The position numbers were made by a program, and so were the translations under genes. The notes under the pieces are model-generated. The model was not told the DNA's origin. It made no database searches and worked only from the letters and a program-made list of their open reading frames with translations. Source: an uncultured Clostridia bacterium (GTDB lineage Bacteria > Bacillota > Clostridia > Christensenellales > CAG-314). From it: 47,401 bases of DNA. How positions within the stretch are numbered: the first letter of the stretch is position 1; each line of letters begins with the position of its first letter. Of the stretch, positions 33,664 through 47,401 are shown in pieces. The DNA is taken from contig CANPXV010000011.1 of NCBI GenBank assembly GCA_947586855.1, forward strand, positions 1 to 47,401, given 5' to 3'.

Positions 33664-34716
33664 AAGGTTATCGGTATTGAAACCAACGGGGTAGTCAAAT
33701 ACCAACCGCTCGGCACATTCTATTCGGACGAATGGCAGATAAACCAAGACTCGCAATGGGTAAAGTGTAGTGCGGTGGACAGGCTGATGCGACTGCAGAA
33801 AAAGACCTATGTCGGCTTTCCGCTGACAGAGAATGCATCGCTATACGATATAGCTGCCGACATTCTTTTAAATATCGGCGAAACGGCAGATACTTTCGTT
33901 ATTTCAAACGACTTAAAGTCTGTAATCGTGCCGATGGCATTTCTGCCGAAAGGCACGGCTTGGGACGCATTGCAGGAAATCGCCAATGCGGGACTATGCA
34001 AAGTGTTTGTAGACCGAGAAGATAAAATCAATGTCCGCTCTGAGAAAAAGCCGAAGACAACAACGGCGATAAGGATAGATAAAAGCAATATGTTTTCGTA
34101 CTCATCGAGTGTTTCTTTGACCGAGTTTGCGAACCGTATTTCTGTGGAATACTGTGACGTATCATTGTCGAACGATACGGTCGAAGCGGTATCGGTCGAA
34201 CTTAATATAGAGCCGAACGCATCGCTTGAACTGACGCTCGATTATAATACCGAAGTTGCGTACCCTGCAATGGAAACGGATAACTTAAATGTGCTATTGA
34301 CCGACTTCCAAGGCGGTGTTAATGCTTGCTCGGTCGTTGCGAAGAACAAGACAGCTGAAAAACAAAAGGCGGTGCTGATGGTCACGGGCAAGGCAATCGA
34401 GATAACGACAAAGACTTTGACCAAACAGGACGATGAAAGCGTGCGTAACAACGGAATAACCGAGTATTCTCACCCGTCAAGCGATCTTGTACAAAGCCAC
34501 GATCAAGCGGAATACATTGCGAATTTCTTACTCGAAAAGATGCATGCGGGAGAGGGTGTTGTAACTACGACTTGGCGAGGCAACCCGAAACTCAATCTCG
34601 GCGAGAAGTATGTGTCGGTGGATAGGTTCGGAGACAGTCAAGAACTTGTATGCGAGTATAACAAGTTTACGTTTGACGGCGGATTGAAACAAGAGACGCG
34701 CGGAAGAACGACATAA
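33664..34716 (+). pseudogene. Phage tail/baseplate protein, 5'-truncated
   Basis: A continuous reading frame runs from 33664 (after TAA at 33661) through the GTG at 33775 to 34716, with protein-like sequence from its first codons (VIGIETNGVVKYQPLG). No start codon with ribosome site is present, so the 5' part is missing. The protein resembles long tail-tip or baseplate proteins of Clostridial siphophages; about 350 residues remain. The base use is AT-richer than the core genes. It marks the left edge of a prophage remnant. Confidence 0.7.
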
Positions 34717-34727
34717 GGAGGGTATGA

Positions 34728-34907
34728 ATGGCAAACTGGAAAGAGCCAAAGAGCGATTACAAAGCGGAAGACCAAGTAACGCCGGATATCTTCAATACTC
34801 TTGCGGAAAACGAAAAACACTTGAAAGAGATTTCTTGCAAGGTAGAAAAGAAAACAAAAAGCGGAACTACGACAACGATTTCCTCTATCGTTTTCGTAGA
34901 GCAATAG
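34728..34907 (+). CDS. Small phage tail-region protein
   Basis: 59 residues (MANWKEPKSDYKAEDQVTPD...), acidic-basic and mostly helical. An overlapping frame from ATG 34724 is the alternative, but this one keeps phage-like content and GGAGGGT precedes it. Function unknown; it lies between tail genes in Clostridial prophages. Confidence 0.65.
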   Translation: MANWKEPKSDYKAEDQVTPDIFNTLAENEKHLKEISCKVEKKTKSGTTTTISSIVFVEQ

Positions 34908-34908
34908 G

Positions 34909-35199
34909 ATGCTGAAAGTAGTCAAAGGCGATGTTTTTGAGTTCGGGTTATCGTTTGGGAACGTTGCTACAGAACTCATAGAAAAGGTGGTGTTCGCATG
35001 CAAAGAACTTGGAATCGAAGAAGAGGCGGATAGAGAAGAGGATGAATTCCGCATTCGAATACCGGGTGAAGTGACAAAGGACTTCAAAACAGGTTTTTTG
35101 AAATACGACATCATCGCCACCTTAATAGACGAGCAAGAGGTAACGCTCGTGCATCGTCAAAAAATAGAAGTATTGGAGAGGGTGGAAAATGGCGGATAA
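34909..35199 (+). CDS. Phage hypothetical protein
   Basis: 96 residues (MLKVVKGDVFEFGLSFGN...), beginning directly after the previous stop and overlapping the next gene by 11 nt. The alternating strand-like sequence (IRIPGEVTKDF) suggests a small beta fold. No function can be named. Confidence 0.7.
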   Translation: MLKVVKGDVFEFGLSFGNVATELIEKVVFACKELGIEEEADREEDEFRIRIPGEVTKDFKTGFLKYDIIATLIDEQEVTLVHRQKIEVLERVENGG

Positions 35200-35542
35200 A
35201 AACTACTATAGTAATCAGGGACAAGTAAACGTCACGCCCGGAATTACCGTAACCTACAACTACAATCGGTTAAAGAACAAGCCGTCCATCAACGGGAAAC
35301 CGCTTGACGGGAAAATGACGGCGAGTGAACTGAACCTATTGTCGAATGATGTGACGGACTATGAGGAAATCAAACTGGGAGTCGATAAACGCGACTCCTT
35401 TATTCTTGTCGTGGGAGAAAACGGCGAGACAAATAAAATAAAACTTGGCGAACTCGTCAAAGGGAAATTACAGGCGGTTGACAAGATAACCGAAGATATC
35501 CCTAACGGCGATTTTGTATTCAAGAAAATGGAGGACAAATAA
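35189..35542 (+). CDS. Phage hypothetical protein, tail module
   Basis: 117 residues (MADKNYYSNQGQVNVTPGIT...). GAGAGGGTGG precedes the ATG. The NNRLKNKPSINGKPL-type segment recalls small tail appendage proteins. It precedes the tail-fibre-like gene. Confidence 0.7.
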   Translation: MADKNYYSNQGQVNVTPGITVTYNYNRLKNKPSINGKPLDGKMTASELNLLSNDVTDYEEIKLGVDKRDSFILVVGENGETNKIKLGELVKGKLQAVDKITEDIPNGDFVFKKMEDK

Positions 35543-35543
35543 C

Positions 35544-36653
35544 ATGGCTCAAACTACAAACAAGTTTCAGATTATTCAGAAAGTCAGCGCAGAAGATACC
35601 GTCTTAATCCATCCCGAAACAGAGGCGGAAGTTGTCAAGTACAGCGGCACGGCGGCGGGTATTTCGGCGGAGAATGTGCAGGGCGCAATCGATGAAGTCT
35701 ACGAGCAGGTCAAAGGTATCACGGGCGGTGGTATCGTAACGGGTATCAAGGGGGATAAAGAAACCGCCTACAGAAAAGGTGCTGTCAACCTTACCCCTGC
35801 AAACATCGGCGCTGAACCGAGCGGAGCGGTGAACACTCACAATACGTCCGGAACGGCGCACTCGGATATTCGCACCGCCGTAACCAACGCACAGAACAAA
35901 GCAAACAGCGCATATGCACTTGCGGAAGGCAGAGCGAAGGCTGTTTCGTTCGATACCGTAGCGGCAATGACAACAGCATTGAAAGCGGCTGCTAAAACCG
36001 ACTACAAAGTGGGCGATAACATCTTTATCAAGGCTTTGGATACTCCCGACTATTGGGTAAGCAAGGTTCTCGATAACAACACGGGTACTTACGGGTACTT
36101 TGAGATCAGTGCTCTCGAATCGCAAAAAGTTGACCTTGCTGCATATCAGACGAAGACGGACAACACGCTTGCGACTACGGCAAAGACTGTAGTCGGTGCT
36201 ATTGGCGAAGTAAAAACGACTGCGGATGCGGCAAAAAGTCAGTCCAATACCAATGTCACCGAGATTGCTAATATCAAGAACGGAATGACTAAGGTCGGCG
36301 CAGCTACGAAAGCAGATAAAGCAACCAGTGCTGATACGGCAACGAGCGCGACTTCGGCAGGCAAGTGGACTGCGGCGAGAACACTCGGTGTAAGCATCAA
36401 TTCGGGTGTCAAGAAAGACGGCTCGACCGCTATCAGTGGATCGGGAAGCCAGAGTGTGGATGGTTCTGCAAATAAGACTGTTTCGGTTACATTGGGGGAT
36501 AGCGGTGTTACAGCAGGAACTTATTCTGCCGTTCAGGTCAATGCTAAAGGTATTGCAGTCGCAGGCGGACAGATGATTGAAATTGGCACGAGCGAACAGA
36601 CCACTCCGAGCGCATCTCTTGCAACGGGCGGACTTTTCTTCAAAGTAGTATAA
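35544..36653 (+). CDS. Phage tail-fibre-like protein
   Basis: 369 residues. The N-terminal part has the tail-attachment pattern VKYSGTAAGISAENVQGAID. The middle is rich in Ala, Thr and Asn coiled-coil-like repeats (ATKADKATSADTATSATSAG). The C-terminus is Ser/Gly/Val-rich beta sequence. Probably a receptor-binding or tail-fibre structural protein. ATG 35544 overlaps nothing but starts 1 nt after the preceding TAA. Confidence 0.7.
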   Translation: MAQTTNKFQIIQKVSAEDTVLIHPETEAEVVKYSGTAAGISAENVQGAIDEVYEQVKGITGGGIVTGIKGDKETAYRKGAVNLTPANIGAEPSGAVNTHNTSGTAHSDIRTAVTNAQNKANSAYALAEGRAKAVSFDTVAAMTTALKAAAKTDYKVGDNIFIKALDTPDYWVSKVLDNNTGTYGYFEISALESQKVDLAAYQTKTDNTLATTAKTVVGAIGEVKTTADAAKSQSNTNVTEIANIKNGMTKVGAATKADKATSADTATSATSAGKWTAARTLGVSINSGVKKDGSTAISGSGSQSVDGSANKTVSVTLGDSGVTAGTYSAVQVNAKGIAVAGGQMIEIGTSEQTTPSASLATGGLFFKVV

Positions 36654-36666
36654 GGGGGTATCGTGA

Positions 36667-36906
36667 ATGGCTTACAGACCGAAAATTAAGAATGCCAACG
36701 GCACTCTTACCGATTTGCCGATAGCAGCGGAAACGGCAGTAAAGGCAGACGATTATAATACATCTACGGGGACGATTAAAACAAAGTTCGCAACTGTTGA
36801 TTCGAAGCTCGGAAAACTGCAAATTGATGGCACATGGTACACAGTGAAAGAAGAAACCAATTATACGGCAACAGGTACTGCCGGGTACATCACTATCATT
36901 AAATAA
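36667..36906 (+). CDS. Small phage structural protein
   Basis: 79 residues (MAYRPKIKNANGTLTDLPIAAETAVK...). It begins like many short tail-fibre partner proteins. Function unknown. Confidence 0.65.
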   Translation: MAYRPKIKNANGTLTDLPIAAETAVKADDYNTSTGTIKTKFATVDSKLGKLQIDGTWYTVKEETNYTATGTAGYITIIK

Positions 36907-36916
36907 GGGGGTATCT

Positions 36917-37771
36917 ATGGGAAGTTATTTTGGGATAAGGGCAATCTATAAGGATACAACGCTTATTTTTGCCAAAGAAATGAAACTAACAATCAGCATA
37001 GGAACCGGGGTCAGTAAGGTCGCATACATTTACACAACAAAAACAGGCGCAACAGGTTCGGGAACAGTAACGTCAACAACGACAATCTCGGCAATATTTG
37101 GGTCGACTTTTACTTTTACACCGACCGCTGCATCTGGTTATTCAATGAACTCATACACATCAAGCCGATTCATTGATTCTGATATGACATTGAGTTTCAC
37201 TGCAAAATCATCGAGTAGTAGTGGCGGCGGTGGTGGCTGTGTATATGCCGACAGTAAGATATTGACATCGCTTAATGGAGACACCAAAGAAGCACGCACT
37301 CTTATTACAGGCAACAAAATCGTGGCATATGACAAAGAGAAAAAATCGTTTGTTCAAACATTGGTGTTGAAGAGGTATATCCTGACCGAACCGACAAATA
37401 TATACATCCTTTCTTTTGGCGATGGTACAGAACTGTCCATTACGCCAAAACACAAAGTTTTGACAAAAGACGGCTTTATATCAGTATGGGACGATAACGG
37501 ACAAGAGCAAATCAGTGTCGGAACAAGGCTAATCGGCAAGGATGGAGAAAAAACAATAGTTGGAGTAAGGCGAGAGGTTACTGCGGACGATACCACTGTG
37601 TATAACTACCGAACCATCAAGGGGGATGCTTTCGTAGCGAACGGGGTTATTGTGGAAAACGAAAGCGAGACCACAGTCGGCAATGTAGTAAATAACCTCT
37701 TTAACAACGAGGGTGGAGTAAGTACGGCATCGCTTGTCGGCGGCGGAGATATTTCAAAACAACATGTATAA
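36917..37771 (+). CDS. Phage structural protein with Hint (intein-like) domain
   Basis: 284 residues. The N-terminal about 105 residues are Thr/Ser/Gly-rich structural sequence ending GGGGG. A Cys (about residue 107) opens a Hint fold: DSKILTSLNGD, then block B-like LSITPKHKVLT (His present), and a block-F-like YRTIKGDAFVANGVIVEN ending Asn-Glu. The intein-type splicing end (His-Asn followed by Cys/Ser/Thr) is not kept. Clostridial phage tail proteins often carry such Hint domains after a Gly run; they may self-cleave or crosslink. The +1 residue Glu argues against full splicing. Confidence 0.75.
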   Translation: MGSYFGIRAIYKDTTLIFAKEMKLTISIGTGVSKVAYIYTTKTGATGSGTVTSTTTISAIFGSTFTFTPTAASGYSMNSYTSSRFIDSDMTLSFTAKSSSSSGGGGGCVYADSKILTSLNGDTKEARTLITGNKIVAYDKEKKSFVQTLVLKRYILTEPTNIYILSFGDGTELSITPKHKVLTKDGFISVWDDNGQEQISVGTRLIGKDGEKTIVGVRREVTADDTTVYNYRTIKGDAFVANGVIVENESETTVGNVVNNLFNNEGGVSTASLVGGGDISKQHV

Positions 37772-38069
37772 TATGATATCGATAATAGTGAGTGTGTGTG
37801 CGAGCATCATCAGCGGAATGGTGCTCTTTTTCTTGCAAAGATTTTTCAAGAAAAAGCAAAAGGTAGATGAAGAGCGAGACAGAGCAAAAGCCAAAGAGAA
37901 CATGCTGATACTAAAAAGTATAGATGCTGTGGGGAAACTGACGTATGCGGATGCGGTAGCCATTCGAGACGGGAAAACCAACGGCGAGATGAAAGAGGCG
38001 ATGAAAGCCTATGCGGAAGTTAAGGATGAACTCTACGAGTATTTGCTCGAACAAAATTCCAAGAAATAA
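37764..38069 (+). CDS. Small membrane protein with charged tail (phage lysis region)
   Basis: 101 residues from ATG 37764 (an in-frame TTG at 37734 or ATG 37773 are alternatives; no strong ribosome site for any). One membrane helix (about 4-25) is followed by a Lys/Glu-rich tail with KKKQKVDEERDRAK and a conserved-looking KLTYADAVAI segment. The position suggests a holin-like or holin-accessory protein. Confidence 0.55.
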   Translation: MYNMISIIVSVCASIISGMVLFFLQRFFKKKQKVDEERDRAKAKENMLILKSIDAVGKLTYADAVAIRDGKTNGEMKEAMKAYAEVKDELYEYLLEQNSKK

Positions 38070-38083
38070 GGAGGGGAAGATAA

Positions 38084-38395
38084 ATGGAACAGTATTTGAA
38101 TTTAATCAGCGTCCCGGCGATTGCTGCGGTCGTGTACTGGACAATCAACGTCATTAAACATGCAGTCGGAGAGAACGAAAAGTTCAAGCGGTGTATTCCG
38201 CTTATTGCAACGGTGTTCGGAATCGTGTGTGGCATTATTTGTTTTTACGCTTTGCCGAGCATCATCCCGGCACCGAATATCGTGGTGGCAATCGTCATCG
38301 GCGGTGCGAGCGGACTGACGGCTACGGGAACGAACCAAATCATCAAGCAACTTGGCAAAAAGGACGATAAAGACGATGGAAAAACTAATAATTGA
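38084..38395 (+). CDS. Phage holin
   Basis: 103 residues. Two to three membrane helices and the GGASGLTATGTNQIIKQL end that occurs in Clostridial prophage holins. GGAGGGGA precedes the ATG. It should pore the membrane for a lysin, but no lysin gene follows. Confidence 0.8.
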   Translation: MEQYLNLISVPAIAAVVYWTINVIKHAVGENEKFKRCIPLIATVFGIVCGIICFYALPSIIPAPNIVVAIVIGGASGLTATGTNQIIKQLGKKDDKDDGKTNN

Positions 38396-38504
38396 AAGCG
38401 TATTAAAAAGCCTTTTGAAAAGGGGGACTAATCACTTCGGCAGAGAAGGAAAGAATTATCAAAAAAGTTTCAGAATAAAGCAGTTTTTGTCTGGACTTTT
38501 ATAA
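38376..38504 (+). CDS. Short ORF at the lysin position, possibly a remnant
   Basis: 42 residues (MEKLIIESVLKSLLKRGT...), overlapping the holin end. It has no recognisable domain. It could be the stub of a deleted lysin or a small phage peptide. Confidence 0.35.
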   Translation: MEKLIIESVLKSLLKRGTNHFGREGKNYQKSFRIKQFLSGLL

Positions 38505-38520
38505 GTGAGCACGGTATTGT

Positions 38521-38557
38521 TTGTCCTGCCCGATAAAAAGGGCGGGACAAATTTTTT
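38521..38557 (+). terminator. Terminator between holin and recombinases
   Basis: An 11-bp stem TTGTCCTGCCC (38521-38531) / GGGCGGGACAA (38540-38550), loop GATAAAAA, then T6. Confidence 0.9.
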
Positions 38558-38615
38558 ATCGCAGTTCAAATCCAGTCGGCAGAGCCGAAAAACGAACGAG
38601 AAAGGAGCGTGAGAA

Positions 38616-40094
38616 ATGAATATTCAAGAGATACCTACAACAAGGAAGGAGAAACCACGGGTATGTGCGTATGTTCGTGTCAGCACCGATAGCGAAGCAC
38701 AAGAAGATAGTTTCGCGTTCCAGTCCAATTATTGGCAGAAACGATTTGCAAGCGACGAGTCCATAGAGTATGTTGGCTTATTCTCCGATGAGGGCATCGG
38801 CGGTGCGTTTATGAAAAAGCGAGATGGACTTAAAAGGATGTTTCAAAAAGTACGAAATGGCGAAATCGACAGAATATACACGAAGTCGGTTTCGAGATTC
38901 GCTCGGAACAAAGTCGAACTAATGGAAGTAGTCAGAGAGTTCCGAGATTTAGGTGTGGAAATCATATTCGAGTCTGAAAACATACATACCCTTGACCCCA
39001 AATGCGGCTTAATCCTTACAGTGATGGCAAGTCTCGCAGAAGAGGAATTACTATCTATGAGCCAAAACCAAAAATGGGCTGCACGGAAACGATTCGCAAA
39101 TGGGAGTGTGGAACTGGCACGAATACTTGGATATGACATGGTCGATGGAAAGTTAGTGATAAACGAGAAAGAAGCGGTCATAGTGCGAAGAATCTTTGAA
39201 CTGTATCTGCAAGGCAACTCGTTTAGAACTATATGCCATATTCTCGAAAACGAAGGGTACACCCCAATGCATGGGGGACGATGGAGCAAATCGACAATAA
39301 CGGGGATGTTACGAAATGAAAAATATTGCGGGGATAGTATTATGCAAAAATCATATAGCGTAATGAAAGTACAAAAATACAACTACGGAGAACTCCCCAA
39401 GTATTATATCCAAGGCGATCACGAACCGATTGTGTCGCGTGAAGACTACCAAAAAGCACAGGAGATAATGATGGCACGTGGCAATAAATATAGACCAAGG
39501 GGGTCACCTACGGCATTATATCCACTATCAGGAAAACTGATATGCGGAGAGTGCGGAACGAGTTTCAAAAGAAAAACTTCGGCACACGGAACTCCATATA
39601 TGTGTATAAAGTGGACATGTCGGAAAAAGGATGTTTATGGGGTAAAGGAATGCGCATCACATGACATCAAAGACGAAGTCGTTACAAGATTGCTGATTGA
39701 AGCCTACAACGAAAGCCTTGACGCGAATAATGATGTGAACGGCGTAACGGAACAAGAAGATGTCTTGCGAAAACTTATTGCCAACGAGCAAGAACTGCGA
39801 CAATTACGAGCCAAAGGTTATATATCCGAAAGCAAATTCCGAGAGGAAACCGATAAAATACTTATAAAGATAAAAGAACAGGAAACTCTCATAAAAAATC
39901 TACAAACGAGAGATATGGTAAAAGGGAAATATAAGAAATCGGATGAGCTGACGGAACAAATGGCGGAGTTCCTTGTAAAGGCAACAGTAAAAGACTGGAC
40001 GATTACATTCGAGTTCCAAAATGGATATAAGGCAACGAAAGAATATACAAACGGGAGGGCAGGAAATGTCAATGGAAAACTGTGCAAACACTAA
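38616..40094 (+). CDS. Large serine recombinase 1
   Basis: 492 residues. The catalytic domain (1-150) has AYVRVSTDSEAQ with the nucleophile Ser, DEGIGGAF and KSVSRFARN. Then the recombinase domain, a zinc ribbon (CGECGTSFKR, CIKWTCRKK) and a coiled-coil end. AAAGGAG lies before the ATG. It acts by phage-type integration or excision. Its 3' end overlaps the second recombinase by 29 nt. Confidence 0.93.
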   Translation: MNIQEIPTTRKEKPRVCAYVRVSTDSEAQEDSFAFQSNYWQKRFASDESIEYVGLFSDEGIGGAFMKKRDGLKRMFQKVRNGEIDRIYTKSVSRFARNKVELMEVVREFRDLGVEIIFESENIHTLDPKCGLILTVMASLAEEELLSMSQNQKWAARKRFANGSVELARILGYDMVDGKLVINEKEAVIVRRIFELYLQGNSFRTICHILENEGYTPMHGGRWSKSTITGMLRNEKYCGDSIMQKSYSVMKVQKYNYGELPKYYIQGDHEPIVSREDYQKAQEIMMARGNKYRPRGSPTALYPLSGKLICGECGTSFKRKTSAHGTPYMCIKWTCRKKDVYGVKECASHDIKDEVVTRLLIEAYNESLDANNDVNGVTEQEDVLRKLIANEQELRQLRAKGYISESKFREETDKILIKIKEQETLIKNLQTRDMVKGKYKKSDELTEQMAEFLVKATVKDWTITFEFQNGYKATKEYTNGRAGNVNGKLCKH

Positions 40095-41700
40095 ACCCAA
40101 AATTACGATTATACCAGCGAAAACAAGAGTCGAACGGCTTGACCCTATGTCGGTAGCTATGGGACAAAAGCCTAAAATACGAGTGGCTGCATATGCACGA
40201 GTGTCGACCGACCACGAAGAACAGGAGAGTAGTTACGAGGCACAGGTAGACCACTTCACCAAACTCATAGCAAGCCATGATGATTGGACGATGGTTGACA
40301 TCTATGCTGACCCCGGTTTGAGCGGTAAAAATACCAAAAGAGTGCAGTTCAAACGAATGATAAAAGACTGCGAAGACGGGAAGATAGACCTAATAATTAC
40401 AAAATCGGTCAGCCGATTCGCAAGAAACACACTCGACTGCGTACAGACGGCAAGAAAACTGAAAGCGGACGGCATCGGAATCATATTCGAGAAGGAAAAC
40501 CTTGACACGCTACAAGAGCGGAGCGAGTTCGTTCTTACGATAATGGCAAGCCTTGCGGAAGAAGAAAGCCGGAGCATATCCAATAATATAAGGTGGAGCG
40601 TCAAGAAAAAATTCCAAGAGGGGAAAGTGATTCTTAACACGAAACACTTCCTTGGATATACGAGAGACAAGAAGGGAACGGTGCTGAAAATCGTGCCAGA
40701 AGAGGCAATAACGGTCAGAAGGATATATGCGGAGTTCCTTGACGGTAAAAGTCTGAAAGAAATCGCTGAAGGACTTGAGCGAGATGGTATAGCATCGCCG
40801 TCAGGCAGAGAAACATGGCATCCTTCCACGGTGAAGTCGATACTGCAAAATGAAAAGTACAAGGGCGATTGCCACCTGCAAAAAACATACCTTCCAGACT
40901 TTCTATCCCCAAGGCGAATTAAAAACGAAGGATTCGCGCAGAGCTGGTATGTGGAAGATAGCCATGCGGCTATCATATCGAAAGAGACATTCGACATGGT
41001 ACAGCAAGAGTTCCAAAACAGGCAGTCGCTACGAAGTACAGGTGAAACGGGATGCGGAAAGTTTTCAGGTAAATATCCGTTCAGCGGAATGATAGTATGC
41101 GGCGAATGCGGGGAAACCTACCGAAGACACCAACAGTACAACAAATATAAGAAGTACTACATATGGGTGTGCAAAAGACACGAAAACAATGGGGCGGAAT
41201 ACTGCAAGAGCCGACCTATCAAAGAAGAAGCCCTTGAGAAAGCGTTTGTAAGGGCATTGAACGAACTTATAGGAGACAAGGAACGAATACTCGAAAAACT
41301 GCAAAGTGCGACCGTGAGCGAAATAACGGACTCCTGTGCGACAGTAATAAATGAAGTGAATGCCGAGATAGAAAAGCTACAAGAGCAGATGATGGAACTG
41401 CTGATGAAAAGGAACAACGGAGAGATTACCGATAAAGAATATGAACAGCAAAGTCAGCAGGTCGGAATGAAAATAGACCAACTGCTTATGAGAAAAGAAG
41501 AGATACTGTCCGAGCAAGGAAAAGTCCAACTCGCATCTTACCGAATCGAAGAAGTGACTAAACTGCTACAGACGGGAAAGATACTTGAAGAGTTCGATCG
41601 AGTGATGTTCAAAAGCCTTGTAAGGAAAATCACTGTGCTGTCCAACAAGGAAATCGAAATCGAGTTCGAGTGCGGGATAACAGTAAGAGAAACTTTATAA
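40066..41700 (+). CDS. Large serine recombinase 2
   Basis: 544 residues. Start ATG 40066, behind GGGAGGGCAGGAA; a longer frame to 40021 is inside recombinase 1. Catalytic motif AAYARVSTDHEEQESS, SGKNTKR and KSVSRFARN; zinc ribbon CGECGETYRR; a coiled-coil C-terminus (about 425-490). The two recombinases differ in sequence, so they probably work as a pair, as in many Clostridial conjugative or phage elements. Confidence 0.93.
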   Translation: MSMENCANTKPKITIIPAKTRVERLDPMSVAMGQKPKIRVAAYARVSTDHEEQESSYEAQVDHFTKLIASHDDWTMVDIYADPGLSGKNTKRVQFKRMIKDCEDGKIDLIITKSVSRFARNTLDCVQTARKLKADGIGIIFEKENLDTLQERSEFVLTIMASLAEEESRSISNNIRWSVKKKFQEGKVILNTKHFLGYTRDKKGTVLKIVPEEAITVRRIYAEFLDGKSLKEIAEGLERDGIASPSGRETWHPSTVKSILQNEKYKGDCHLQKTYLPDFLSPRRIKNEGFAQSWYVEDSHAAIISKETFDMVQQEFQNRQSLRSTGETGCGKFSGKYPFSGMIVCGECGETYRRHQQYNKYKKYYIWVCKRHENNGAEYCKSRPIKEEALEKAFVRALNELIGDKERILEKLQSATVSEITDSCATVINEVNAEIEKLQEQMMELLMKRNNGEITDKEYEQQSQQVGMKIDQLLMRKEEILSEQGKVQLASYRIEEVTKLLQTGKILEEFDRVMFKSLVRKITVLSNKEIEIEFECGITVRETL

Positions 41701-41976: not shown

Positions 41977-42052
41977 TGGTGGAGATAAGGGGATTCGAAC
42001 CCCTGGCCTTCGCATTGCGAACGCGACGCTCTACCAACTGAGCCATATCCCC
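41977..42052 (-). tRNA. tRNA-Ala (CGC)
   Basis: 76 nt with encoded CCA. Acceptor GGGGATA / TATCTCC with the G3-U70 pair that marks tRNA-Ala; D stem GCTC/GAGC; anticodon stem TCGCG/TGCGA, loop TTCGCAA giving anticodon CGC; T arm AGGGG-TTCGAAT-CCCCT. Its 3' end faces the recombinase element. Confidence 0.95.
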
Positions 42053-42301
42053 ACAACGGTTCCATTATACAACCACTCGGCAAAAAAAGCAATCAAATTG
42101 AGGCATTTGGCGCACAATATTGCGCAAAGGCGCAGGCGAAGTGGCAGCAGCGGTGCGTTTGGGGCAAATTTGCGGCCAAGTTGGACGATTTTGGGGTCGA
42201 TTTTATCTTTGAGCAAAAGTTTGCAACTAATATGTCAAAAAAACTTTACTTAAAGCGCAATTTGTGATAGAATAATCAAGCAAACAAAAATCACCGGCTA
42301 T

Positions 42302-42393
42302 GGAGAAGTACCCAAGAGGCCGAAGGGGCGCCCCTGCTAAGGGTGTAGTACGTGGTTAGCGTAGCGAGGGTTCAAATCCCTCCTTCTCCGCCA
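42302..42393 (+). tRNA. tRNA-Ser (GCT)
   Basis: 92 nt with a long variable arm and encoded CCA. Acceptor GGAGAAG / CTTCTCC; anticodon loop CTGCTAA gives GCT; T arm GAGGG-TTCAAAT-CCCTC. Confidence 0.97.
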
Positions 42394-42399
42394 AGGCAG

Positions 42400-42440
42400 A
42401 ATAATACGAACCCGACAGGTAATGTTGGGTTCGTATTATT
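42400..42440 (+). terminator. Terminator after tRNA-Ser
   Basis: AATAATACGAACCC (42400-42413) / GGGTTCGTATTATT (42427-42440), extended by GAC/GTT, one wobble. Little T run follows. Confidence 0.65.
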
Positions 42441-42451
42441 GTAAAAAGAAA

Positions 42452-42562
42452 ACCACCAGCAGTGCTGGTGGTGCCAAAGAGCTTTAGCCATGTCCGTTTA
42501 CTAATTCTCCCGTGGTGTATAATTGTAGCGGTTCGCCAACCGCAATAAAATAAACCACCACG
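42452..42562. mobile_element. Possible IS200/IS605-type end or MITE remnant
   Basis: A perfect palindrome ACCACCAGCA-G-TGCTGGTGGT (42452-42472), then about 40 nt, then a longer imperfect hairpin from GTGGTG (about 42513) to CACCAC (about 42562), enclosing GCGGTT-CGCC-AACCGC. Such asymmetrical terminal hairpins are typical of IS200/IS605 ends. No transposase is present. The gap 42394-42788 holds the tRNA terminator, this element and a promoter, but no gene. Confidence 0.4.
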
Positions 42563-42731
42563 AAGGAATCAAGTATTAAACTTGACACAGAAAGTTTAGC
42601 ACAAGGTAAATATCCTTGGGGATAAATTCAATAAATAAGATTTCAAAAATAGCAAGTTTATATTAAGAGCAGGGAGTAACATCTCTGTTCTTTTGTTTTG
42701 TTGAAATAAAGTCTAAATTATAGATTTTTGA

Positions 42732-42760
42732 TTGCATTTGCTTTAAAACTATGCTATAAT
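42732..42760 (+). promoter_or_regulatory. Promoter of the HTH-DUF1016 genes
   Basis: TTGCAT (42732-42737), 17-nt spacer, TATAAT (42755-42760), 28 nt before the start codon. Confidence 0.7.
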
Positions 42761-42788
42761 ATAGCCAATGATAGTTGAGAGGTGTTCT

Positions 42789-42998
42789 ATGGCGGTCAGT
42801 TATAAAAAATTATGGAAATTACTGATTGACAAAGATATGAAGAAAAAGGACCTGCGTCTTGCCACGGGCATGACTACGACTGCGCTTGCAAAACTCGGAA
42901 AGGATGAGCCTGTCAACCTCGAGATTCTTTTGAAGATATGCAAGGTTTTGAAGTGTGATATTTCCGACATTATGGAAATCGTCGAAACCAAGGAGTGA
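42789..42998 (+). CDS. Helix-turn-helix regulator (Cro/CI type)
   Basis: 69 residues. HTH pattern: KKKDLRLATGMTTTALAKLGKDEPVNLEILLKICKVL, with the second half forming the stabilising helix. ATG 42789 follows GAGAGGTG. It lies upstream of the DUF1016 gene and probably regulates it. Confidence 0.85.
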   Translation: MAVSYKKLWKLLIDKDMKKKDLRLATGMTTTALAKLGKDEPVNLEILLKICKVLKCDISDIMEIVETKE

Positions 42999-43005
42999 GG
43001 CGAAT

Positions 43006-43995
43006 ATGGTGCCCGACGATAACTATTCCGAAATTGTAAAAATCATACAGTCCGCACGAGAGCGTGCATTTTATAAGGTGAACGAGGAACTCATCGGAAT
43101 GTATTTCCAGATCGGCAAATATGTTTTCGAAAATTCTCGCAATGCGGCTTACGGCGATGCCTATGTAGAAGGGCTTGCCGAATTCTTTGCTAAAAATTAT
43201 CCCGAACTGAAAGGCTTTACCCGCCGTGGGCTTTATCGTATGCGTCAATTTTACGAACTATACGGCGAGGATGAAAAAGTGTCAGCACTGCTGACACAAT
43301 TGAGTTGGACAAATCATCTTCAAATTATGTCCGCCTGTAAATCTGCTGAGGAACGCTACTTTTATATGGCGTTATGCGCAAAAGAAAAATACAGCACTCG
43401 TGAACTTGAACGCCAAATAGACAGCGCATATTACGAGCGTTATATGCTCTCTCAAAAGCCGACGACTCCCGCCATCACCGAGGCAAAGCGAAGCACGTCA
43501 AATGTGTTTCTTGATACCTACACCCTTGAATTTCTCGACGTTCCCGAAGTTGCCAACGAAAAAGATTTGCAAAAATCAATCGTGCAAAACTTGAAAAATT
43601 TCATTTTGGAGATTGGCAAGGATTTTTCGTTTGTCGGCGAGGAATATCGCTTGCAGGTTGGCGGGCACGACTATTATATTGATCTTCTTTTTTATCACCG
43701 CGGGCTTTCCTGCCTTGTGGCGTTTGAACTTAAGATTGACGAATTTAAGCCGGAGTACGTCGGCAAAATGAATCTATATCTTGAGGCTCTTGACTGCGAT
43801 GTGAAAAAGCCGAATGAAAATCCGAGCGTCGGCGTCATTCTTTGTGCGAAGAAAGACGATGAGGTCGTTGAGTACGCCTTGAGCCGTTCACTTTCGCCAA
43901 CGATGGTTTCGGAGTACAAACTCAAACTTATCGACAAGAATTTGCTCCAAAAGAAGTTGAAAGAATATCTCGAACTTGCGGGGAAAATAGAATAG
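43006..43995 (+). CDS. DUF1016/YhcG-type PDDEXK nuclease
   Basis: 329 residues. N-terminal helical DUF1016 region (about 10-160, with FTRRGLYRMRQFYE and LSWTNHLQIMSA). The C-terminal PDDEXK domain has YIDLLFYHR (Asp) then VAFELKID (E-x-K). The family accompanies type I restriction loci and is thought to act as a defence nuclease or RM modulator. It starts 8 nt after the HTH stop with GGAG-TGAGG. The next gene is an HsdS remnant. Confidence 0.9.
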   Translation: MVPDDNYSEIVKIIQSARERAFYKVNEELIGMYFQIGKYVFENSRNAAYGDAYVEGLAEFFAKNYPELKGFTRRGLYRMRQFYELYGEDEKVSALLTQLSWTNHLQIMSACKSAEERYFYMALCAKEKYSTRELERQIDSAYYERYMLSQKPTTPAITEAKRSTSNVFLDTYTLEFLDVPEVANEKDLQKSIVQNLKNFILEIGKDFSFVGEEYRLQVGGHDYYIDLLFYHRGLSCLVAFELKIDEFKPEYVGKMNLYLEALDCDVKKPNENPSVGVILCAKKDDEVVEYALSRSLSPTMVSEYKLKLIDKNLLQKKLKEYLELAGKIE

Positions 43996-44021
43996 ATGAA
44001 GAACAACATATGCTTAATTAA

Positions 44022-44429
44022 GATATAATCCATTGCGAATGGACTGAAAACACATGGAGGATTTTAATAACGCGAAGCGGCACTATTGGGAAAATTGCCC
44101 TTGTGCCGAAGCATTGGGAGCATTGGATTCCATCCGACCATATTATTCGAGTTGTTCCGTGCAGTAAAAATATCGCAGGCTATCTCAATATTTTTTTGGC
44201 ATCGGAATATGGTTTTAAACTAATTACTCGTTTCACTTACGGGTCGGTTGTTGATGAAATTGACGACAATCACGTGCGTGCAATTCCAATTCCGCTTCTG
44301 AAAAACCATGAGATACAAAAGCAAATCAATGATCTTGCACTTGAAGCCAACCAGAAACGATACGAAGCATATCAACTCGAACAGGAAGCATTGCGTATCA
44401 TGGATGCTGAAGTCATTTATACAAAATGA
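44022..44429 (+). pseudogene. Type I restriction specificity subunit HsdS, C-terminal fragment
   Basis: The frame opens after TAA at 44019. Protein-like sequence continues without start codon: LITRSGTIGKIALVPKHWE, the conserved TRD core, then VRAIPIPLLKNHEIQKQI and a coiled coil. GTG 44103 is internal. About 136 residues of an expected 400 remain, so the N-terminal part is missing. It is a remnant of an RM locus. Confidence 0.85.
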
Positions 44430-44461
44430 TATAATCTTATGTCTGGGAATATAAAGATAGG

Positions 44462-45169
44462 ATGAAAGCAATAAAAAATCTAACATCAAGATTAAACGGG
44501 TTTTATCAATCGTTGGCACAGGTAATCAATCGGGGAGAAGCTATTAGATTAAACAAGTCAACTGCGGATAACGCCTTAACTCTTCTCGGACAACTAAAAG
44601 ACGAGGTACAACCTTATAGTGAGGTTTGTGCACAGATGCTTGAGGACATTTATTCCAACCTGTTTTTCGTAAATCCCGATTGGACGTTGGGCATTAACGC
44701 ATTTCGATTTGGTAAATTAGAAGCGGTTTTGCAATACTTGAATTCTTCTGATTTTGTCTGCGATTTTGCGAAATACATCAAAACGCCTTGGGAAGATATA
44801 AACAACGCAACAAGAAAATTATTGGAAGACTCGGCAAATGCTTCCGATAGATTTTCGTATAATCAAGTCGGAGTTTTAGGTAGGGAAATTTACATATTGC
44901 TTGGAACAAAGGTATATAAACCCGAGATGAACAATCATGGGGACGGTAGTCCTATCGGTACGGCTGACGCAAAAGGAATGCTTGAAAGTTTTATCGAATA
45001 TCGTCTTAAAGGTAAAAGCAACAAAGATATGAGAGAGTATGCAGATAAAGCGGTAAAACTTGCTGAGCCTGTAACCCACGCAAAAACCGAAGATAGGAAA
45101 AGCATGGAAACATTAGTCACAGCTGTAATTGCATTGGTCGCTTTAATAAACACTATTTATAAAAATTGA
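44462..45169 (+). CDS. Unknown protein with C-terminal membrane helix, defence-island context
   Basis: 235 residues, mostly helical, no family recognised. Residues about 212-232 (METLVTAVIALVALINTIYK) form one hydrophobic segment at the very end, a tail anchor. AAAGATAGG precedes the ATG at close spacing; a -10 box TATAAT at 44430 lies upstream. A HEPN-like or abortive-infection role is conceivable but not shown. Confidence 0.55.
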   Translation: MKAIKNLTSRLNGFYQSLAQVINRGEAIRLNKSTADNALTLLGQLKDEVQPYSEVCAQMLEDIYSNLFFVNPDWTLGINAFRFGKLEAVLQYLNSSDFVCDFAKYIKTPWEDINNATRKLLEDSANASDRFSYNQVGVLGREIYILLGTKVYKPEMNNHGDGSPIGTADAKGMLESFIEYRLKGKSNKDMREYADKAVKLAEPVTHAKTEDRKSMETLVTAVIALVALINTIYKN

Positions 45170-45213
45170 ACATAGGAGTATTTTGTCGCCATCTAATTTT
45201 CTTCTCCCCCACC

Positions 45214-45232
45214 CAAGCGGGCTCCCCGCTTG
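45214..45232. repeat. Palindromic hairpin, dispersed-repeat-like
   Basis: CAAGCGGG (45214-45221) / CCCGCTTG (45225-45232) with a CTC centre, flanked by CCCC and GGGG. The 45170-45637 gap has this, the ATGACA-GGTAT-TGTCAT palindrome (about 45363-45380) before an extended -10 (TGGTATAAT), a 12-codon ORF (45404) and a repeat, but no clear gene. Confidence 0.5.
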
Positions 45233-45500
45233 TTGAGGGGCGAAGTTGTGGCACTTGTGACCAACTTCCTTATCCTGCTTAGGCATCCGTTTTTCTGCCC
45301 ACTTTTGTGGCACATTTGGTATGGGGTATGCCCGCTAAAATTTCTTCGGAAAATTTTGTAATGATGACAGGTATTGTCATGTTTGGTGTGGTATAATTGT
45401 CGTATGGATAAGTTAGCATATCATCTGAATAAGAAGAAATAGCCTGCGCCTACGGACGGAAAGTTCCTGTACTATTACCCCGCAGACGAGGAGAGCGCAG

Positions 45501-45546
45501 ATGTGCACCAAACGTACACACCAATCACTTTACGCCTGCGCACGGA
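45501..45546. repeat. 46-nt direct repeat, copy 1
   Basis: Starts near TGTGCACCAAACG and contains ACCAATCACTTTACG, ending GCGCACGG. Copy 2 at 46338-46385 has the same start and end with a few changes. It flanks the next gene and the repeat array. Confidence 0.75.
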
Positions 45547-45586
45547 CGGATATTCTGCGGCGGATGCGCATTGTGCGCCTCGGCTG

Positions 45587-45615
45587 TTGACAAGGCGCAA
45601 AGAAAAGTGTATAAA
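45587..45615 (+). promoter_or_regulatory. Promoter of the gene at 45638
   Basis: TTGACA (45587-45592), 17-nt spacer, TATAAA (45610-45615). Confidence 0.7.
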
Positions 45616-45637
45616 TAGAGGAAGGGGCACAACCAAC

Positions 45638-46003
45638 ATGACCATCGACGAGCTGAACAACATCACCAAGCTAACCAACAAAAGCAAAATCGAGCGGGCG
45701 CTGCGGGCGGCGGGCTACTTCGACGTCACCAAGCACAAGCAGCTGCGCCACCTTAGCCTGATAGAACTTGCCCGAGCCGAGATGGAGGACGGTGCCGAGT
45801 ACCTGACCGCCAACGGAAAGCGGCTGTTCGACGGGCAAATAGCGCCTTGCGTCAACACCGCCGATGGCTACGAATTTGTGATTGTCAACATCTACAAAAC
45901 GCCGAGAGATCCAGACGGCGAGGCAATGCAAATCGACATACTCATCTGGGCTCACAAAAAGCCCTCCCTCACCCCAAAAACAGCACTTGGGGTAGGTTTT
46001 TAG
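45638..46003 (+). CDS. Unknown protein ending at the array
   Basis: 121 residues (MTIDELNNITKLTNKSKIER...). The middle (ANGKRLFDGQIAPCVNTADGYEFVIVNIYK) has no family I recognise. GAGGAAGGGG lies 11 nt before ATG 45638. The last codons run through a terminator-like hairpin (45971-45993), and the stop lies inside the first degenerate array repeat. That suggests the native 3' end has been lost or frame-shifted. A longer in-frame extension back to ATG 45404 is broken by TAG at 45440. Confidence 0.6.
   Translation: MTIDELNNITKLTNKSKIERALRAAGYFDVTKHKQLRHLSLIELARAEMEDGAEYLTANGKRLFDGQIAPCVNTADGYEFVIVNIYKTPRDPDGEAMQIDILIWAHKKPSLTPKTALGVGF
45971..46001 (+). terminator. Terminator-like hairpin at the end of the unknown gene
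   Basis: ACCCCAA (45971-45977) / TTGGGGT (45987-45993) then AGG and T5. It lies inside the annotated reading frame, which is odd. Confidence 0.55.
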
Positions 46004-46334
46004 GGCGGCGTAACCTCAAATATGCCCAAAATCTTATCAATCGGTATCGGCAGCTTGCCAAGGATCGAGAATGGTGCAGTTTCCAACAGGTCCAACACAA
46101 AGGGGCTTACAATAATTTCAAAAGATAGTTGGGAAGAGCTGTAATTTCAAACAGGTCTACAACTGTGCCGCTCTCCGTTTTGTTGATAGACCGTTGGAGA
46201 ATGGTGCACTTTCAAATAGATCTAAAACGTGCGTACACTACGGCATTTTGCAGGTGTTTGAGTGTGGTGTGATCTCAAATAGGTTCATGGCCCAATCGCT
46301 TTGCGCTGGTGTGCAATCAAATATGGTTCATAAG
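45997..46334. CRISPR. Decayed CRISPR array, type II-like repeats
   Basis: Five 36-nt units align without gaps at 45997, 46063, 46128, 46193 and 46256 (steps 66, 65, 65 and 63). Spacers are about 30, 29, 29 and 27 nt. The consensus begins GTTGGAGAATGGTG, holds TTTCAAATAGG and ends TCTAAAAC; the best unit is 46193-46228. A sixth copy (46299-46334) resembles unit five but only 7 nt separate them. Each unit carries several substitutions, and no cas gene is visible in the window. The repeat length, period, GTT...AAC ends and AT-rich 3' half fit type II repeats. Orientation and leader are not resolved. Confidence 0.7.
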
Positions 46335-46337
46335 CGG

Positions 46338-46385
46338 ACGTGCACCAAACGCACACGCACCAATCACTTTACGTAAGCGCACGGC
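46338..46385. repeat. 46-nt direct repeat, copy 2
   Basis: Starts ACGTGCACCAAACG and contains ACCAATCACTTTACG, ending GCGCACGG; see 45501-45546. It begins 4 nt after the last array unit. Confidence 0.75.
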
Positions 46386-46459
46386 CAAAGATCCCCCGTC
46401 CCTGCGCATGGCGTGGCGCCATATATAGCAAAAAGGTCCCGTCTTGTTGCGGCAAAAGG

Positions 46460-46488
46460 TTGATTTTAGGCGCAAAACGTGCTACAAT
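46460..46488 (+). promoter_or_regulatory. Promoter of the HAD phosphatase
   Basis: TTGATT (46460-46465), 17-nt spacer, TACAAT (46483-46488). Confidence 0.7.
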
Positions 46489-46537
46489 GATGGCGCAAAA
46501 GGGCGGCGGACAACTACCACACTTGCAAGGAGGATCT

Positions 46538-47317
46538 ATGGATAAACTGCGTGCCAAAGCGGGCTTTATATGCGATATGGACGGCGTCATCTACCACGGC
46601 AACACGTTGCTAAGCGGCGTCAAGGAGTTTGTCGATTGGTTGTATGCGCACAACAAGCGGTTTTTGTTTCTCACCAACAACAGCCAAAAGTCCCCCAAGG
46701 AGTTGCAGCAAAAGCTGGCCCGCATGGGTCTGGAAGTGCCCGAGCACAACTTTTACACGTCGGCGCTGGCCACGGCAAGTTTTCTCAAAAGCCAGGGCGG
46801 CAAAACGGCCTATGTCATCGGCGACGCCGGCCTGACCAACGCCCTGTACGAGGTGGGCATCATTCTCAACGATATCGACCCCGACTACGTTGTCATCGGC
46901 GAGACGGAAAACTACAATTTCGAGAGCATCAAAAAGGCCACTGCGCTTGTCAACAACGGGGCGTTGCTCATCGGCACCAATTCGGATATCACCAACCCCA
47001 CCGAGCATGGCGAGGTTCCTGCGTGCAAAGCGTTGGTTGCCCCCGTCGAGTACGCCACCGGCAAAAAGGCCTACTTTGTGGGCAAGCCCAACCCCCTGAT
47101 GATGCGTGCCGCCATGGAGCGGTTCCACGCCAAGGGCATACACTCTCCCGATGTGGCCATGATAGGCGACCGCATGGATACGGACATGATCGCCGCCATC
47201 GAGTCGGGCCTGGACCCCGTGCTGGTGCTGTCGGGCGTGTCCACACGGCAAAGCGTCAAGCAGTTTCCCTACCGACCACGCCTCATTCTCAACGGCGTGG
47301 GCGACATTGTGGAATGA
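46538..47317 (+). CDS. HAD-superfamily phosphatase, NagD-like
   Basis: 259 residues. Motif I DMDGVIYHG (nucleophile Asp and acid Asp), motif II FLTNNSQKSP, motif III/IV with VGKPNPLMM and MIGDRMDTDM. This is the NagD/AraL subfamily, with a C2 cap, which dephosphorylates sugar or nucleotide monophosphates. AAGGAGG precedes ATG 46538; a longer frame to 46340 is not used. Confidence 0.92.
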   Translation: MDKLRAKAGFICDMDGVIYHGNTLLSGVKEFVDWLYAHNKRFLFLTNNSQKSPKELQQKLARMGLEVPEHNFYTSALATASFLKSQGGKTAYVIGDAGLTNALYEVGIILNDIDPDYVVIGETENYNFESIKKATALVNNGALLIGTNSDITNPTEHGEVPACKALVAPVEYATGKKAYFVGKPNPLMMRAAMERFHAKGIHSPDVAMIGDRMDTDMIAAIESGLDPVLVLSGVSTRQSVKQFPYRPRLILNGVGDIVE

Positions 47318-47325
47318 TAGTTTAT

Positions 47326-47397
47326 CCGGCCAAACGCAAGGCTGTTCGGTTGACTACGCAACCGACCCCTACGGGGCGCAAGCGCAGCCTTGGCCGG
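47326..47397 (+). repeat. 72-nt multi-hairpin dispersed element, copy B
   Basis: Begins CCGGCCAAACGC and ends GCCTTGGCCGG, 8 nt after the NagD stop. Nearly identical to copy A (16458-16530, minus strand), with a one-base gap in the GGTTG hairpin loop. It reaches within 4 nt of the window's end. Confidence 0.85.
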
Positions 47398-47401
47398 ACT
47401 A

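Follow-up and report, generated by a model that had tools for sequence, protein, structure and literature searches.

Locus and surroundings

The window, that is, the whole stretch of DNA that was analysed (47,401 nucleotides), corresponds to a complete contig. Near its end lies a series of worn 36-nt repeat units, flanked on the left by a small open reading frame (ORF) and on the right by a HAD-type phosphatase-like gene, presumably nagD. The coordinates of the array and of its neighbours are given in Table 1. The ORF (45638-46003) encodes 121 amino acids. Relatives of its product were found in G013 and G020, with 72-74% identity over the first 108-109 residues, and in G004 (64%, with one internal stop), and distant relatives (32%) were found in G001 and G003. 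The N-terminal part of the product gave a weak excisionase match (E = 0.0014). ORF and array are together bracketed by direct repeats of ∼50 bp. Using copy 2 plus the array as query, no further copies of the direct repeat were found in the genome itself.

In the preliminary description, a DUF1016 gene and an HsdS stub near the array were listed as debris of other defence systems. The DUF1016/YhcG gene is not debris, since it is full-length and carries both domains. The HsdS stub is plausible: the fragment at 44103-44429, an ORF of 108 amino acids, has no Pfam match, and a PADLOC search shows it to be similar to portions of specificity subunits (best E = 9.2e-11).

Elsewhere in the window, phage tail-like proteins are encoded at 33775-34716 and 35514-36653. 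The genes of two large serine recombinases come next and overlap each other (38616-40094 and 40021-41700). A tRNA-Ala (41977, minus strand) and a tRNA-Ser (42302, plus strand) lie just beyond the recombinases. The region 33775-41700 is probably the end of a prophage.

Table 1. Repeat units, former spacers and flanking features at the array; mismatches are counted against the 36-nt repeat of the congeners.
Feature	Position	Strand	Remarks
Direct repeat copy 1	45497..45545	+	∼50 bp; 43 of 51 aligned columns identical to copy 2
Decayed repeat unit 1	45997..46032	+	12 of 36 mismatches; leader-side edge of the relic; the stop codon of ORF 45638-46003 falls within it
Former spacer 1	46033..46062	+	30 nt
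Decayed repeat unit 2	46063..46098	+	8 mismatches
Former spacer 2	46099..46127	+	29 nt; 10-nt repeat-like stretch at 46113-46122, chance level
Decayed repeat unit 3	46128..46163	+	8 mismatches
Former spacer 3	46164..46192	+	29 nt; chance-level identity over 18 consecutive nt with a release-factor-like gene of the same genome
Decayed repeat unit 4	46193..46228	+	4 mismatches, best preserved
Former spacer 4	46229..46255	+	27 nt
Decayed repeat unit 5	46256..46291	+	9 mismatches
Sixth repeat copy, poor match	46298..46333	+	16 mismatches (ungapped); 6 nt past unit 5
Direct repeat copy 2	46334..46384	+	Begins exactly at the end of repeat unit 6
HAD-type phosphatase-like gene	46538..47317	+	Downstream neighbour; orthologue also downstream of the array in G018

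Repeat units and spacers

Five gapless 36-nt units and a poorer sixth follow one another with start-to-start distances of 66, 65, 65, 63, and 42 nt. Mismatches were counted against the 36-nt consensus of the array of the congener G019, GTTTGAGAATGGTGTAATTTCAAATAGGTCTAAAAC. The first five units are identical to one another at 18-28 of 36 positions, and their majority equals the living repeat except at 2 of 36 positions, with one tie resolved in favour of the latter.

The level expected by chance was determined from 200 first-order Markov (Markov-1) simulations of the window, in which 36-mers on either strand were compared with the repeat. The best chance match had 12-17 mismatches, and on average 0.015 matches per simulated window were obtained at ≤12 mismatches and none at ≤9. 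The real window holds five matches at ≤12 mismatches and four at ≤9, all on one strand and in phase. Mismatch scan and simulation thereby confirmed the five gapless units with a period of 63-66 nt and spacers of 27-30 nt that had been described from the letters alone. The sixth copy of that description is present at its place past unit 5, with 20 of 36 positions matching (ungapped), and is too weak to stand alone.

Following pairwise alignment of the four full spacers, all scores were negative (−12 to −3); the spacers are thus unrelated, as first described. The window units have the regular period and the unique spacers of ∼30 nt by which a CRISPR array is recognized. Tandem Repeats Finder did not report the array in the window, even at a score of 30, and a general repeat search of the window recovered four of the units, so an array as worn as this one would probably escape a CRISPR finder run at its usual settings.

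Living type II-A loci in congeners

Raw window DNA, without any consensus, was searched against 41 genomes. Matches at E = 0.1 or better were obtained in 17 of these, and matches with E < 0.002 only in G019, G012, and the genome itself. The array of G019 gave 19 matches (best E = 8.9e-15), two further weak matches being located elsewhere in that genome, and the array of G012 gave one strong match (E = 1.7e-7). Matches in the 14 other genomes (E = 0.002-0.1) were short and were set aside as chance level. In the G019 array 42 copies were counted, 41 of them exact in an exact-repeat search, and the consensus equals the reference repeat letter for letter. The same exact repeat occurs three times in the G012 array, followed by a degenerate last copy. 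The repeats of G005 and G018 are one letter off, and so is the single copy of G013, which lies at a contig edge. In a genome-contig collection, the exact repeat was retrieved from two records, both uncultured Clostridia MAGs labelled Lapin; viral contigs gave 0 matches to this exact form.

In G019, the gene order is cas9 (1408 amino acids), cas1, cas2, and csn2, followed by the array. Family matches were obtained for Csn2 (E = 8.2e-39), type II Cas1 (E = 1.6e-86), and Cas2 (E = 4.1e-17). Cas9 and Cas1 are present in all four living loci (G005, G013, G018, and G019); of the other genes, cas2 gave a family match in G019, and csn2 did so in G019 and G018. By the usual definition, the presence of Csn2 marks type II-A, and the NCBIfam model is named accordingly. 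Judged by their sequences, the CRISPR-Cas loci of the congeners are of type II-A. The majority of the window units is near-identical to the repeat of the relatives' cas9-linked arrays, and the best E-value of the raw-DNA search agrees with this. Intact cas9 arrays sharing the repeat, which the preliminary description had looked for in relatives, thus exist in G019, G005, G013, and G018. Its type II reading was borne out and can be narrowed to II-A, because Csn2 is present in the loci of these relatives.

Immediately 5′ of cas9 in the four living loci, a conserved stretch was found that carries an opposite-strand anti-repeat and, by eye, inverted repeats. This stretch is predicted to be the expected tracrRNA. 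A leader of ∼50 nt is conserved in G005, G012, G013, G018, and G019.

Some further features of the living loci were recorded. Within the genus leader (L026, L027, L028, L029, and L031), ∼50 nt 5′ of the first repeat, 13-15 nt are complementary to the repeat. In some genomes this stretch directly follows a TATAAT-like box, and it seems to track the repeat variant of each genome, exactly in some and roughly in others. Energies of the leader-repeat duplex ranged from −12.0 to −16.1 kcal/mol in five of five genomes, values that have no shuffled control. As a candidate, this leader stretch would be a second anti-repeat besides the tracrRNA. In G005 (L027 6097-6196), a degenerate repeat pair with a distance of ∼65 nt is located ∼600 nt 5′ of cas9, separate from the main array. 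It was considered as a self-regulating mini-array and rejected, since no match of its spacer to the rest of the locus exceeds 10 nt. In G018, the living array is worn at its trailer end (L029 4200-5200), with several copies at 3-11 mismatches, truncated copies, and gaps, an early stage of the decay seen in the window.

Orphan and worn arrays in the genus

Among 25 genomes of the genus, four (G005, G013, G018, and G019) combine Cas9 and Cas1 matches with the repeat. Three others (G012, G008, and the genome analysed here) have the repeat and no Cas9 or Cas1 match, at differing stages of decay. G012 retains its leader and a small array in which three perfect repeats are followed by a worn copy; the relic of G008 consists of three scattered worn copies, the best with 3 mismatches. 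Around both relics, tblastn of the fetched stretches gave no cas gene hit at E = 0.01. G022 encodes a shorter Cas9 and has no Cas1 match, and the repeat is absent from the 19 kb fetched around it. G021 gave a weak Cas9-domain hit below the cut-off, and G004 a Cas1 match and no Cas9 match. In the remaining 15 genomes, neither Cas9 nor Cas1 nor a repeat unit was detected by these searches. Two of these 15, G007 and G010, passed E = 0.001 in the genus survey through 25-29 nt that align with spacer or flanking sequence of the query. They were discarded; when their loci were scanned for repeat units, none was found, the most being one hit with 16 mismatches. A lone worn repeat copy with 6 mismatches was noted in G012 (G012:C24:6688-6723; L105 1502-1537), on a contig other than that of the orphan array.

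The relic of G008 is located upstream of metK, on the same strand, like the living array of G019. When the metK loci of the 25 genomes (1.5 kb flanks, one partial) were inspected, the repeat was found only in these two. No other observation speaks as strongly for relics of this sort having decayed where the living locus once stood. Similarly, the G018 array lies upstream of the orthologue of the phosphatase gene and on its strand; two RimK-like genes separate them. Besides the window, 20 neighbourhoods of phosphatase orthologues were scanned (18 from congeners and 2 from other genera, several cut by contig ends), and only G018 has an array there. An isolated hit with 12 mismatches in G050, 8.2 kb from the orthologue, is probably due to chance. 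For neighbourhood rows L064, L068, L073, and L079, another frame was listed over the phosphatase gene, an artefact of always choosing the longest ORF. Because the gene order around the phosphatase gene is poorly conserved, the position common to G018 and the window is suggestive only, and it forms a weaker parallel than the metK pair.

Spacer sources

The four window spacers were compared with 113 spacer intervals of four congener loci, and no convincing match was obtained (shuffle p = 0.42, 0.03, 0.95, and 0.705, the value of 0.03 belonging to spacer 2, one of four tests). Searching the array against 50,697 phage records yielded 12 records at E up to 10 and nothing better than E = 1, and the phage source that had been envisaged for the spacers was thus not found among these records. 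The spacers have probably decayed too.

Spacer 3 matches a gene of the same genome at G000:C1:95500, which from a translated motif we take to be release-factor-like, and part of the match is shared with a gene of G001. With the whole 451-nt query, E-values were 0.026 (own gene) and 0.09 (G001). An unrelated place in G019 scored E = 0.097, so the self-match is at chance level and was rejected as a real source. It could still be proposed that the genus presents a graded fossil record of repeated, independent losses of one type II-A system, with living, orphaned, worn, and nearly erased stages, and that the loss in this genome was driven by autoimmunity through spacer 3 against the release-factor-like gene; we regard this as unlikely by a wide measure.

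CRISPR machinery in the own genome

The genome analysed here comprises 1.47 Mb in 36 contigs and is 93% complete. No matches were obtained in it for Cas9 (profile TIGR01865) or Cas1 (profile PF01867). The tracrRNA region of G005, used as query at E = 0.1, recovered G013, G018, and G019 and gave 0 matches in this genome, so that the tracrRNA anti-repeat looked for after the preliminary description was not found by this search. The leader likewise gave 0 matches at E = 0.1, and the sequence 5′ of unit 1 differs from it. No copy of the repeat within 3 mismatches, a limit exceeded by the window units, was found elsewhere in the genome.

Within the window, remnants of cas genes were sought by tblastn using eight Cas proteins (those of cas9, cas1, cas2, and csn2 from G019 and G018), and none was better than E = 0.07; cas2 and csn2 were sought in the window alone, with none at E < 0.07. 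On the leader side, 46 kb of sequence is known and holds no recognizable cas gene. In an Rfam scan of 42000-47401, two tRNAs exceeded the gathering score and some other matches stayed below threshold, with nothing at the array. The earlier statement that no cas genes lie nearby therefore held.

As the assembly is incomplete, it could have missed a cas operon, and a living system encoded in the absent 7% or on a plasmid might still serve the orphan array in trans. The fragmentation into 36 contigs leaves room for this, and cas genes can act in trans on arrays elsewhere in the genome that share identical repeats, according to the study on Escherichia and Salmonella (PMC2886076). Against it, matches to Cas9, Cas1, tracrRNA, and leader are all lacking in the assembly, and the first five units are 4-12 positions off the living repeat in a random pattern, which would disturb pairing with a tracrRNA. 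Service in trans is therefore considered very improbable. A decayed CRISPR array without cas genes, as claimed in the preliminary description, is supported by the repeat of the congeners and by the failure to find cas9, cas1, tracrRNA, or leader in the own genome.

Wear of the repeats

In the five units, 41 of 180 repeat positions have changed (23%), by 27 transitions and 14 transversions. The substitutions are spread evenly, as expected of neutral changes, and the earlier view of an array accumulating changes stands. The accompanying claim that most of these are C/T transitions did not stand: C/T changes make up 16 of the 41, and the dominant trend is from A/T to G/C (29, versus 7 from G/C to A/T). 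As an A/T-rich repeat (31% GC) sits in a window of 52% GC, drift toward the genome composition would explain this excess. The fourfold sites of the adjoining phosphatase gene differ by 42-68% between this genome and nine congeners. The wear of the array lies below this divergence, which makes the time scale reasonable; on a rough estimate, the array could have fallen out of use within this species' own lineage.

Repeat positions with 0, 1, 2, and 3 substitutions numbered 9, 16, 8, and 3, compared with 9.9, 14.6, 8.6, and 2.5 expected for evenly distributed hits. No segment of the repeat is preserved above chance, and this speaks against the units being kept for an RNA function. As such a function, one could think of a small array that directs a Cas protein against a host gene, or of an anti-CRISPR RNA that mimics the repeat and belongs to a mobile element. 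The enclosure of the array and of the ORF with its weak excisionase match between the direct repeats would fit a regulatory RNA, and so would the degenerate repeat pair upstream of cas9 in G005. However, the changes are even over all 36 positions with no core kept beyond chance, no Cas9 to be guided or inhibited was found in the own genome, the repeat in its exact form is absent from the viral contigs, and the number and spacing of the units are those of an ordinary array, leaving a regulatory RNA with hardly any likelihood. That the units are an ordinary tandem satellite or a chance likeness, as the low identity among the first five and the silence of Tandem Repeats Finder might suggest, can be dismissed, given five observed matches versus a simulated rate of 0.015 per window, unrelated spacers, and a repeat that is that of cas9-linked congener arrays, which by itself refutes this view.

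Probable origin and meaning of the array

The feature is best explained as a neutral remnant of a type II-A CRISPR array (probability roughly 0.93). This explanation is carried by the identity of the repeat with that of living arrays, by the geometry of the units, by the lack of any Cas9, Cas1, tracrRNA, or leader match in the assembly, and by the even spread of the changes. In short, an ancestor would have carried the cas9-cas1-cas2-csn2 locus of the genus with its 36-nt repeat and 30-nt spacers, presumably handed down by vertical descent. The cas operon, tracrRNA, and leader would then have been lost, probably by a leader-side deletion, with five to six repeats and their spacers being left upstream of the phosphatase gene. 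Deletion in place is only inferred, because no piece of a cas gene was recognized in the window. Without Cas proteins adding repeats and without selection, point changes would have built up in each repeat, mostly toward the higher G+C content of the genome, and small deletions would have shortened some spacers. The relic array most likely does nothing now.

CRISPR loss is usually viewed as a matter of presence or absence. Here, several states occur within a single genus: the locus is alive in some genomes, reduced to an orphaned array in one, and worn in two others, and one of the worn arrays and a living array precede the same gene. Comparing wear with synonymous divergence might permit a rough dating of CRISPR losses.

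Comparison with known systems

Sister species keep a living Cas9 system with the shared repeat, and the array in the window is an ordinary fossil. Like the type II-A loci of G019, G005, G013, and G018, it has a 36-nt repeat and a period of 66 nt, the majority of its units differing at 2 positions; unlike the window, these loci possess cas9, cas1, an antisense tracrRNA, a conserved leader, and near-identical repeats. The orphan arrays of G012 and G008 resemble it in belonging to a genome without a Cas9 or Cas1 match and in having few repeats left. G012 differs by keeping the leader and three perfect repeats, whereas the window has no leader left and its copies show heavier wear; compared with the best copy of G008, at 3 mismatches, the window copies are likewise more worn.

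A worn orphan type II-A array is of a kind already described in other bacteria as degraded CRISPR loci (PMC2886076, PMC6882279). For Escherichia and Salmonella, loci are described in which cas genes have been lost and arrays shrink yet outlive them, the array search having used a 60% identity limit (PMC2886076). The loss of cas genes and the survival of the array are common to those loci and the window, whereas the hosts and the subtypes are other ones. In Mollicutes, at least 8 of 21 systems are given as inactivated or degraded (PMC6882279); the window array is like these in being an inactivated, degraded system and unlike them in its host.
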